Source: Amphiura filiformis
Lineage: Eukaryota > Echinodermata > Ophiuroidea > Amphilepidida > Amphiuridae
DNA length: 64,000 nucleotides
Direction of reading: 5' to 3'
Assembly (NCBI RefSeq): GCF_039555335.1
Contig: NC_092628.1
Span: 70,895,706-70,959,705 of the forward strand
Part shown: in pieces, positions 38,801-47,800 of the stretch
Layout: every line of letters begins with the position of its first letter
Numbering within the stretch: position 1 is the first letter of the stretch
Program-made: the position numbers and the translations under genes
Notes under the pieces: generated by a model
Databases searched by the model: none
Told to the model about the DNA's origin: nothing
What the model saw: only the letters and a program-made list of their open reading frames with translations

Positions 38801-41800
38801 TTGTGTGTGTTGACTTATTGTAGAATTGAGTAAGATGTTGTAGATGTTATCAAATTAAAGACCCATTCAGTGATCCCAGCGCAAGTGTAAAAAATTAAAA
38901 TTGTTTATATATATTGCTTAAAAGTGAAGGATAAGTCACTCAAATTGTCATTTGGTATTTTTGAAATGACAAATTTGGCAAAAAAAACAAAAACAGCAGT
39001 ACTGACGAAGTTGAAGCCCCATTCAAATACATGTAGCTAATTTAGATACTGTCAGTATCTAAATTACAGATTTGTGTAAAAAGTCTTATTTTGTCTTAAA
39101 TACACGGCTTTCGGCTGAACCACTCGCAGGCTATATTAGCACATCTATGACAATGACAAAGGTACCAAAATCTGAATTTTGATGATTTTTACGATCGTCC
39201 GGATGAGCAAATCACTGAATGGGCCTTTAATACAAGAAGTACATTTTTAATTTTTTACAGCCTAATTTTGGTGCTTCCTTACAAATCTTCAAAGTAGAGA
39301 TTGGTGGTGATGCTCAGAGTACAGATGGTACTGAGTCATCTCACATGCACAATTCTAATCCTAAGGATGCCAACTATGACAGGGGCTATGAATGGTGGCT
39401 TATGAAAGAAGCTAAAAAGGTAAGAATCAATCATGAAACTTGTATCTCAGCTTCCAAACCATGAGTTGAATTCCATGAACAAAGTTTTCATCTGGGATAG
39501 AATTGCAAGGTGTTTGCTGATAAGAGGATTCGTACAAGTTTCTTATCATTCATTTATTTTATTTCCATTATTCTTCTGCACCCACAAAACACAAAAGATT
39601 GCAGAATTAGGCTAGAAGACCCATGTACTATGTAGCAATTCTTCAAGTTGTCAAATTGTTTATGATTTAATGCATTTCTTGAATGACTTTATGAAGAGTC
39701 CTTTTGGATATTTTTTAAATCTGCATTTTCAGTGGTTATAATAGGTAATATGGTAATACCAAAACACAAAACAAAAAATGTTCATGATTAGTTCCCCATT
39801 TTATTAGAGTCTGAGTGAGGAGTTGGTTCTCCAATTTCATCATAATGCTTTGTCATTTGACTGATTGTGCTAAATGGCTACATGTATACAACCTGAAGTA
39901 ACAATACATTTCACAAACCAACCTTCATGTGGTAAATATCTTTGACAGTTCCTATACTACACGTACTTGTGAAGAAATGCCAGAGATATACTCTTTTTGT
40001 CTGCATAGTCCAATACAGTGAATTTCTCATGATATTACACATATGGCTATATGGTAGTTTGCTTTTCCCTGTGTTAATATTATAATTTGAGAACTACAAA
40101 TACATATTTTGCATTACCTTTACAGCGTAATCCAGACATCAAGCTGTATGGTTTACCATGGGCATTCCCAAAGTGGGTAGGCAATGGTACTTCTGACCCA
40201 TATCATAATCCAGACGTACTAGCAGGGTATATACTAAACTGGATTAAAGGAGCTAAATCACATCATAATCTTACTATTGATTATATTGGGGTAAGTTAAC
40301 TTTGTTAAAACCATAATAATTAGTAAATGGTTTTAATAACCTACCATGTTCAAAAGTGAAACCACTTTGATTTCTGCAATATTATTATGTATACAGCCAT
40401 GAGCTTATGATAATTATTATGTTATTATAGAAATGTCTTTATCCTATGTTATTTTGGATCCCGGTTTTGGATCCACTTTCCTATTAATGAATATAACTAA
40501 AATTACACTGAAGTGTAGCATTACAAAATAATATTATCACATGAAAATTGCCAATCCATGATATCCATACTCCATATTTCTATCTATCTAGGCCAAATGA
40601 TACATACATTTGCATTAATCTAATTACTTCTTTCAGGTCTGCATTATAAGAATACAAACTTGAAAAAGTGGTTGGAATTTGTTTTTATACAATGTCAAAA
40701 TATAGCCATGTAAATCATTAGTCTAGTAACCAATCAATTCCTCCGAATCATAGTAGCAGTTGCAGCGTGTGATGCTGGTAGCATTTCCACAATCGCTTCT
40801 GCCCTTAAGGTGCCGGCAGTGAATGTGATGTAACAAATTGTGAATGATTCAAATTTTTATGCTAGACCTATCCATAAGATTTCTTGGATGCAGATAAACA
40901 AAGCTAAAACAAATCTTGGAATTTGAACCATGTGATGTATGTATGTTGCTGTGTGGGGCTGGGGTGTGTGGTGGGAGCGGTGGACAGAAGTGGGGGTGTT
41001 CTTGTGTGTGCATTTATATGTGTGCTTTAAATGTATGTGTGTACACCCCTGTCTATATTTGACATGATCAAGGAGAATGAGTCGCATGTCAACCCTGGTC
41101 GAAAATAAGTTTTCCATATGTTTCTAAAGAGGACATTTAGAGCTTTCAGAAACTGAAAACCCCATGGTTTTCTTTGCAAAGTTACATCAATTTATCAATT
41201 GCTGAAAACAATATAAAACAAAAATATTTTAACACTTTCTTTGCCAATATCTCAAAATCAATATCAGCGACATCCAACTCATTTCATGTGATAGTGTCAC
41301 ATATGCAAATACCATCATTTATACCTTCATTCATTGTTTCTATCTGACTGGTTAGATTTGGAATGAGAGGAGTTATACAGTGGAATACATAAAACTATTA
41401 CGGAAAGTTCTGGATGACAACGGCTTCAAGGATATGCAGATTGTAGCAGCAGACGGCAAATTCCAGATCAGTGGTGATATCCTAAAGGATTCTGACCTGG
41501 CTAAGGCTGTACAATACATTGGGTACAGGCTTATCTCTTTCACCTAGATGTCTAGCTATTGTACCGTAAAAATTCGATATTAAGCGTATGTGCCTATTAA
41601 TGAGTTGCTCAGACAAAAACAAATTTTTAGGGCAGTTTGTTATACTTTTCCATTGTGTTTCTTTTAATTTACTAATATCTATAACACAGATATATATAAA
41701 TTAAAAGAAAAAAATGAAAAAGTTTACCTAACTAACCTAAAAATTTGTTCTTATCCGAGCAACTTGTTTTATAGGCGCATATGATTATTATCAAATTTTT

Positions 41801-44800: not shown

Positions 44801-47800
44801 GAAATTGAAACCCTAATACTATATTTCTGGAATGTAATTAGCGAACATGATCTGGTTTTTGTTACTGAGTGCATTAATTCAATAAAGTTCCAACTTACAC
44901 TTGTGTGAATTCACATACTACACACCAGTCACACATTATGCAATGCACAACTAGTGTAGTTGATGTGCAAACTGTGTACATGCCATTCTATGACTATTGA
45001 AATACACAATGTTATGAGTCTTGTGTTTTTGCCAATTATAAGGCGAACAAAGTATAACCTTCACCCAAACAGTAATCTCAACACTCATGTAACTCTTATC
45101 TTAACCCACACAGCCTTAGTTGTAAAAGGAAAGGAGTTTTCATTGGCAGTGAAACATTTTAGCAACACTTTCATACCAGTTGAATATTGCAAAGGAGCTA
45201 GGCATGAAGTCTGTTAGTCAGACTTGTACCCGAGTCGATCCAGCTTGTCAGAGTCCAAGCCGAGCCGAGTCCATTTGTATCCGAGTCCGAGCCAAGTCCG
45301 AGTCCAACAAAAAGTGGACTCGAGTCGGACTCGAACGATACATCACTGCTGTTAGTACTGACTAAAAGCCACAGTTTTTCTCACTTTCAGTAAGAGAAAA
45401 TTTGACACTATTCTCTATATCCCCCCAGATTACCTTCAAATTAATCTTACATTTTCAGACTTTTGGTACAACAAATTCCCGAAAAGCACCCGATATCATG
45501 CTAATATTTGTTGTTGCTGACCACTCTTTATTCTTTCTCTTTCTTATCTTTACTTTCTTTCTTATCAGATCTGGAATGAACGTCCATATAATCCAACGTA
45601 TATAAAGCTCCTTAGAAAATCTCTTGATTCCGAGGGACTCCAAAATGTTCAAATCATAGCTGCAGATAACCTTCAGTTTATCAGTATATCAATATTAGAG
45701 GATCAAGAACTGGCTAAAGCTATACAGAAAATAGGGTAGGGATTGAAAATACATGTGTTCATTCCATGTCTAAAAGTAATTTCTAAAAGTTTAAACTGAC
45801 TTTCAGCACAACAAAGTCAACTAACCTTGAATTTCGATGTGTGACACATATCTTCATCAGAAGAAGTCCTATGTTATGTTGGACTTGTCCTTTTAGTGAC
45901 TTTTGGTCAACAAATGGAAGGGCGGGTCCAAGACAACATCAAAGGACTTCTTCTGATGAAGATGTGTGTTACATATCAAAAATTCAAGGTTAGAGGACTT
46001 TGTTGTATTGAAAGTCAGTTTAAACCTGTAGAATTTCACTAACATATATGAACTTGCATTTGAGTGATGTCTAAAAGTATTTATACATTCTAATGCAAAC
46101 TTTGGAGACTTTGAGTTTTGTGTGTGAGAGTAATTAAGCTTATCTTATTATCAAGTTTATGAAGATCCGGACATAGTATATGAACTTGAAATTTTCAAAT
46201 AATAAGGCAATAATGTATGTAAAATTATATGCCATTTTCAAAGTCTGCACAGCTCTGCACTTTTAAGCTTGTTGTATATCTTGTTTATTGTTGCTGCTTT
46301 CTCATATTGAGTGACTAAGCTGCCAGAGGTAAAATGTAAATAGATCCCTGCTAACTTTCACAATTCATCATCAGTGTGCTAATGCAGTTGAAATTCATAC
46401 ACTCCATATGGAAGAGGGGGTGTAGGCTTCAAATAGAGTCACCCATTCGGGTACAATGTAGCCCCATTTAAAAGTTGCACTCCCTGTATGGGAGATTACT
46501 GTGATGTATTCCTTTAGGAGTGTACATGTATGGATTTCAAATAGAGTAACCCAATCATTTACATGCTATAGCTGCTCAACATTATCAATGCTATACTCTC
46601 TTTGCAATTTGTGTAACTTTAAAATGTGTAATGAATTAAGCAATGACATCGGTGTTTGTTTAAAAATTCCTGTGTCACCTGCTCTATCAACTGCAAGACA
46701 TGTAGGGAATTAAGAGGCAAATGTTGATGTGCATGTCATGCGTAGAGTACATTTTTCACCAAAGTCCACTCGATAGATAGTAGGACATGCAGTAGGCCTA
46801 TTATCACATGCACATCTTAAAATATATCATTTAGTTACCAGGGGTCGAGGCTCAAATCCTGTTCAAAGATGCACATTTTTCATCTTTGACTGTCTCAAGG
46901 GAAGAAACAAATTGTGATTATGGTTGACTAAAGTTTGTTAGCATATGGTTTGTTATAAGCAGTGTTTCCTTGCCAGCATTTGAAGCTAAATCAATTTATT
47001 CATTTAATCTGTTTGAACAAAATTGGACCATGTGATAGGAGCCTCTATTTTGATAGTATTTTTGTTATAAATTTGTTTTCCAATTTTCTGTACCAATTTC
47101 TCAACATGATGTACAAAATTATTTGGGGCTACATATATATAATATAATCTATAAATTCTAAATGGGAACACCGTTCAGAAGCCAACTTACTTTAGTCATA
47201 GAAATAATAACTATTTTATATGTTTTTGTTTGTCAAAATAGTGTACATTATCCAGGAACTGAAGTCACACAGCAAACTATTCAGACAGGCAAGCCTATCT
47301 GGGCATCAGAGGACTACAGTACAAATAATAATGAAATTGGTGGGGGATGCTGGGCAAGGGTGAGTTGCTTGATTATGGCTTTATTTAATTTTGTTTGAGA
47401 ATTTACCTGAAGTATTTCCTCATTCTGAAAGTAGTGTCACCTTTGGGCTTTGACAGCTTGCTTGTTTCCCTTGGTTTGTTTCCTCTAAAAGTTAGGTTCA
47501 TATTGAGAGGAAATTACAGAGCTCTCTGTTCTTCCATATTGCCCAGCATTCCAGTTATCCCTATATGATTTTGTGTGTTTTGTAACATTTTGTGTGTGTT
47601 TTTTGTGTAGATACTGAATCAGAACTATGTGAATGGAAACATGACTAGCACCATATCTTGGAATCTGATAGCTAGTTATTATGATGCGTTACCATATACT
47701 CGTGATGGACTCATGACGGCCATTGAACCCTGGAGTGGACATTATGAAGTCACTAGTCCTATATGGGGAGCAGGTATGTTGTACACTCCTGCCGAACGAT

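Follow-up and report, generated by a model that had tools for sequence, protein, structure and literature searches.

We analyzed a 64,000-nucleotide (nt) stretch of DNA from the ophiuroid echinoderm Amphiura filiformis (assembly GCF_039555335.1, contig NC_092628.1, positions 70,895,706 to 70,959,705; hereafter, the window), which contains a gene for GALC, the enzyme of Krabbe disease. The best explanation of the structure of this gene, and one that we consider probable, is that exons 5 and 12 have each been duplicated long ago into a cluster of copies that are mutually exclusive. One of exon 5 copies A, B, and D would fill the exon-5 slot and one of exon 12 copies 12a and 12b would fill the exon-12 slot, so that as many as six enzymes could be made. 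The demonstrated part of this reading consists of the copies themselves, their reading frames, the selection acting on them, and the residue changes that they carry.

The GALC gene extends from start to stop codon over positions 32762-55829 of the forward strand. Its model comprises 15 exon positions, every intron in it is GT-AG, and the predicted exon joins were set by resemblance and reading frame. The protein containing copies D and 12b (the D/12b form) matched the mouse GALC chain (4ccc_A) over residues 19-660 (E = 2.1e-241), and PF02057, PF17387, and PF21708, corresponding to the GH59 catalytic, central, and C-terminal lectin domains, all scored above their Pfam cut-offs. All nine pocket residues of vertebrate GALC are retained in this form. 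The acid/base residue Glu182 is encoded in exon 5, in copies A, B, C, and D, and the nucleophile Glu258 in exon 6; residues were placed spatially by mouse-chain numbering and published descriptions. When A, B, and D were combined with 12a and 12b, all six combinations were open to the end (662 or 664 residues), whereas neither of the two combinations containing the remaining exon 5 copy, C, was.

The exon-5 cluster lies on the forward strand between two constant exons of the model, exon 4 (40126-40290, ending in phase 0) and exon 6 (47242-47359, carrying Glu258). It contains four tandem copies: A (41356-41522), B (43204-43370), C (44479-44647), and D (45569-45735), the last of which matches residues 165-218 of the mouse chain. 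Copies A, B, and D are each 167 nt and open, begin with IWNER in phase 0, end in phase 2 at a split Gly codon (GG before the donor gt), and keep WNE; an earlier note on this DNA had given their length, phases, IWNER start, terminal Gly codon, and WNE correctly. The note had also counted four tandem copies while assigning the 167-nt length to just these three. All four are present, but C is broken: it is 169 nt long, has a frame break, and carries TGA as its codon 15. Copies A, B, and D match one another in tblastn with E-values of 1e-11 to 6e-17; 28-32 of 55 residues are identical between pairs of these three, and 26-30 of 54 in pairs involving C.

When exon 5 was skipped, a stop appeared at the 7th codon past exon 4, and when two open copies were joined (A+B, A+D, or B+D), translation stopped 13 codons beyond the 55 codons of the first copy. 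C alone, or C followed by D, stopped at codon 15 of C, and A+C and B+C stopped 79 codons past exon 4. Because skipping, doubling, and the use of C all lead to an early stop, a full protein requires one, and only one, of the three open copies. The earlier claims that two copies together shift the frame (made for A+B and A+D, and equally true of B+D) and that skipping every copy breaks it were both borne out. The accompanying claim that exactly one copy can be used stands in so far as the frame forces one of A, B, and D per protein, provided that the gene uses more than a single copy in the first place; it does not extend to C, which is unusable as it is.

The observation in the earlier note was right but understated; the note missed a second duplicated exon. 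Exon 12a (53395-53575, forward strand, 181 nt) and exon 12b (53630-53804, forward strand, 175 nt) both run from phase 1 to phase 2 and are separated by only 54 nt (53576-53629, forward strand), the shortest intron of the gene model. Both match the same place in mouse GALC (E = 7e-10 for 12a and 1e-12 for 12b), and they share 32 of 57 aligned residues. Without either copy, the 11th codon past exon 11 is a stop; with both, a stop occurs at the 61st codon, and retention of the 54-nt gap in the mRNA likewise causes an early stop. An Asn-Leu-Thr glycosylation sequon is present in 12a and in none of 12b, A, B, and D. We compared both clusters with the criteria for mutually exclusive exons in PMC3228551, namely similar length, splice-site pattern and frame, and protein homology. 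The lengths are 167, 167, and 167 nt for A, B, and D (169 nt for C) and 181 and 175 nt for 12a and 12b; A, B, D, 12a, and 12b all have GT-AG sites with matching phases, C failing in frame; and the tblastn E-values, given above for A, B, and D, are about 1e-19 for 12a and 12b.

When 18 exon peptides were searched against the window with tblastn, second copies were found only for exons 5 and 12, and the best off-target match had an E-value of 0.14, so the resemblance among A, B, and D is not due to chance. Pocket residues are spread over 7 of the 15 exon positions, and it is therefore unremarkable that both duplicated exons carry them. Preferential duplication of pocket exons was considered and is not claimed, as two out of two would occur by chance with a probability of about 0.2. 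We also considered whether the copies could be uncollapsed alleles or misjoined paralogues produced by the assembly. The frame break in C could indeed be an error or an allele; however, the divergence among A, B, and D (42-49% of residues) greatly exceeds that of alleles, their intron flanks are unrelated, and none of the remaining GALC exons is duplicated in the window, making an artefact very improbable. Comparison of the introns flanking the copies found no shared exon-flank sequence; what did match was either an overlapping stretch of the same intron, a dispersed repeat that lies both upstream of B and downstream of D, or a short stretch attributable to chance. At third codon positions, the exon 5 copies show 27-36 differences among 54-55 codons, which is near saturation. 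Judged by these comparisons, the duplicated copies are old.

Codon models were consulted for selection. In pairwise models, a ratio of nonsynonymous to synonymous rates (dN/dS) of 1 was rejected for all six exon-5 pairs (twice the log-likelihood difference, 2dlnL, of 11.3-33.7) and for 12a/12b (33.5), with four of these seven divergences at or near saturation. On the four-copy tree, a single ratio of 0.05-0.06 was better than 1 by 26 log units. A profile of bacterial GH59 proteins, built from 31 of 34 loci by leaving out the short fragments L032-L034, gave 72.3 bits for A, 50.4 for B, 48.9 for C (with its broken codon treated as unknown), and 66.3 for D. With IWNER removed, the scores were 56.8 for A, 50.4 for D, 36.1 for B, and 33.4 for C, against a best of 6.7-10.0 bits among 1000 shuffled versions per copy. 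For exon 12, where the profile has 29 rows (L026 and L031 have no residues there), 12a scored 29.7 and 12b 35.8 bits, and the best shuffles reached 5.2 and 6.8. In neutral simulations with substitutions only, starting from A and from D with 2000 runs at each of five distances, none of 20,000 both stayed open and reached the score of B. Because the broken copy C still scores well, the profile test cannot exclude a recent loss of a copy. Taken together, the results point to purifying selection on the copies overall, and A, B, and D look maintained. Such coding constraint on A, B, D, 12a, and 12b would be left unexplained if the extra exons were regulatory, with C or wrong combinations acting as poison exons that trigger mRNA decay and thereby set the GALC level while only one protein form matters. 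The plausible splice sites and early stop of C are compatible with a role of this kind, as are the early stops caused by skipping and doubling, but we regard it as improbable.

On the favored reading, the choice of exons in the two clusters would reshape a single active site together with the side that faces saposin. Exon 5 would provide the acid/base Glu182 and the loop of residues 212-216 near the saposin-A face. Asn181-Glu182 is identical in A, B, C, and D, and the loop, which includes Glu215, is the most variable part among the copies: after AAD (ASD in C), A has GKFQ, B has GGQD, C has SGDS, and D has NLQF. One loop column holds an aromatic residue in 30 of the 31 bacterial proteins, and there A has Phe, B has Gln, and C has Asp; the alignment of D in the loop is uncertain because D is one residue shorter than mouse GALC there. 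The alternative active-site wall proposed in the earlier note is thus plausible but indirect, given that Asn181 and Glu182 are invariant while the loop varies, and that Glu215 adjoins the saposin-A contact without being part of it (PMC5764952). Exon 12 would provide position 524 together with positions 520 and 523, which are saposin-A contacts in mouse. Pocket position 524 is Trp in 12b and Arg in 12a, where two extra residues follow directly; in the bacterial relatives this column is Trp in 27 of 29 and Thr in the remaining two. The change from Trp524 to Arg is the most direct sign of an altered pocket. Arg520 and Thr523 bond Gln24 of saposin (PMC5764952). At these two positions 12b has Tyr and Val, and 12a has Tyr and Ile (the latter read from the alignment with mouse GALC), so that neither copy keeps the vertebrate residues.

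Double inclusion would be barred by the frame in both clusters and, in the exon-12 cluster, probably by the 54-nt gap as well. The next shortest intron of the gene model is far longer, at 251 nt. The gap contains two full branch-point matches, one at 9 nt from the donor and the other at 8 nt from the acceptor, as well as weaker matches at 18-37 nt from the donor. For comparison, the donor-to-branch distance in exclusive pairs is 30 nt in Xenopus OGDH and 41 nt in rat Tpm1 (PMC7969005). Steric exclusion between 12a and 12b is likely but unproven, because how this distance contributes to donor blocking remains unclear in that report (PMC7969005). In the exon-5 cluster, the gaps of 921-1681 nt are too long, and short-intron steric exclusion, which requires a gap too small for splicing (PMC6071210), is therefore ruled out. 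Decay of double-inclusion mRNAs can help exclusion, although not in clusters of more than three exons, where lengths can sum to a multiple of three (PMC6071210); this escape is closed for A, B, and D because the stop lies within the second copy. The donors of the exon-5 copies match the consensus at 4, 5, 5, and 5 of 9 positions, fewer than the 5-8 seen in 12 single-copy exons (p = 0.003); 12a and 12b have 7 and 8. Poorer consensus matches of this kind are as expected for regulated exons.

Several points weigh against mutually exclusive use of the copies. Copy C cannot serve in its present form. Arg at 524 could mean that activity has been lost rather than changed. When a single branch was fixed at a ratio of 1, 2dlnL over three topologies was 4.2-4.9 for A, 3.0-4.2 for B, 1.6-2.0 for C, and 8.2-9.3 for D; these tests are weak, in that the branch lengths reached or approached their upper bound, and the usual 3.84 was missed by B on one topology and by C on all. 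In computed U1 pairing, the exon-5 donors (-5.3 to -9.1 kcal/mol) fell within the range of the single-copy exons (-1.8 to -9.8 kcal/mol). In the docking-site and selector mechanism, every copy has its own selector, and all of these can base-pair with one shared RNA docking site (PMC6071210); no such pattern was found among 5583 intron window pairs scanned, with the 25 strongest compared with shuffles. The most significant pairing among those 25 flanks the B-C-D block (z = -7.4), and its downstream arm is part of a self-folding stretch of 271 nt. This stretch, at 45780-46050 in the intron after D, forms a near-perfect hairpin (-155.9 kcal/mol, z = -22) and has a related repeat near 42773-42872, upstream of B; it is probably a transposon-like inverted repeat.

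Some of these points would also fit a history in which only one copy per slot (for example, D and 12b) makes the enzyme and the others are relics, formerly used and now decaying like C. The frame break and stop in C, the loss of the loop aromatic from B and C and of Trp524 from 12a, and the weak branch test for B agree with such decay, and the profile score of C demonstrates that a broken copy can score well. However, A, B, and 12a have kept their frames, lengths, and GT-AG sites despite near-saturated third positions, scores like that of B were not retained in the neutral simulations, and a ratio of 1 was rejected for 12a/12b. We therefore consider relics unlikely and continue to favor two clusters of mutually exclusive exons.

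Alternative splicing of the copies, the route by which one exon 5 is chosen, and the roles of the isoforms are what we infer beyond these data. If the copies are used in this way, the isoforms would most likely differ in the glycosphingolipid or the saposin that they accept, above all those containing 12a. That they act on different lipid substrates is a guess; both gluco- and galactocerebrosides occur in starfish and sea cucumbers (PMC8228791). A further proposal, which we put forward tentatively and hold as less than even, is that a single active site is built combinatorially from two chosen exons, one supplying the acid/base residue and the saposin-side loop and the other Trp or Arg at the near-invariant position 524. 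This might yield enzymes suited to glycosphingolipids of differing chemistry (such as neutral versus acidic), or active plus lectin-like forms. If the exclusive use of the copies is real, this GALC gene would be a natural experiment on what determines lipid and saposin choice, offering alternatives at position 524 and in the saposin-side loop with the scaffold kept.

Other features were observed elsewhere in the window. Exons of an RRP12-like gene lie on the reverse strand at about 6500-26500, an extent judged by eye; of nine peptides tested from across the window, two matched PF25772, one (22922-23137) below and one (23710-24051) above the Pfam cut-off. On the strand opposite this gene, an open frame at 11687-12016 on the forward strand matches the QRICH1 domain (PF25561, E = 3.5e-10) and is perhaps part of a mobile element. 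GALC intron 1 contains arrays of a 120-bp repeat (35281-37005), and the region immediately preceding the gene (31284-32179) holds 2.4 copies of a 378-bp unit. A long tandem array, whose unit is about 34 bp (alternatively, 68 or 102 bp), occupies 60363-63160. Rfam gave no match at the gathering score anywhere in the window.

Among the matches listed in a search of the open literature by title and the start of the abstract, a scope that leaves subscription papers and animal genome annotations outside, no paper on mutually exclusive exons in GALC was found. A study of 110 GALC orthologues, the deepest of them from the coelacanth, reports that every species has kept the active site and describes one exon duplication, N-terminal and in a bat (PMC12008523). 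Vertebrate GALC, represented by mouse 4ccc, has the same domains and pocket residues as the D/12b form. Two clusters in one gene also occur in unc-32 of C. elegans, with exons 4a-4c and 7a-7b (PMC3585155); unlike GALC, unc-32 does not encode a lysosomal hydrolase, and its regulation is known. In OGDH, exons 4a and 4b are a duplicated pair whose exclusivity is aided by branch points near the donor of the short intervening intron; in birds and mammals this intron measures 118-131 nt, compared with 54 nt in GALC, and the choice of exon alters the calcium response rather than a pocket (PMC7969005). Exon choice in CYP4F3 switches the lipid substrate, as proposed here for GALC, but CYP4F3 is an unrelated enzyme with one switch, which has been demonstrated experimentally (via PMC7434440). 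That report names CYP4F3 among such enzyme cases, which it describes as rare, and GALC, if the present reading is correct, would add a lysosomal hydrolase to this rare class of enzymes splice-switched at the catalytic site (PMC7434440). The nearest parallel is COQ-2, in which the homologous exclusive exons 6a and 6e alter conserved residues beside the substrate and thereby switch substrate choice or product (PMC7434440). The COQ-2 case comprises two exons in one cluster and is backed by transcripts and knock-outs, whereas GALC, known from sequence alone, would bring two such clusters together in a lysosomal glycosidase.

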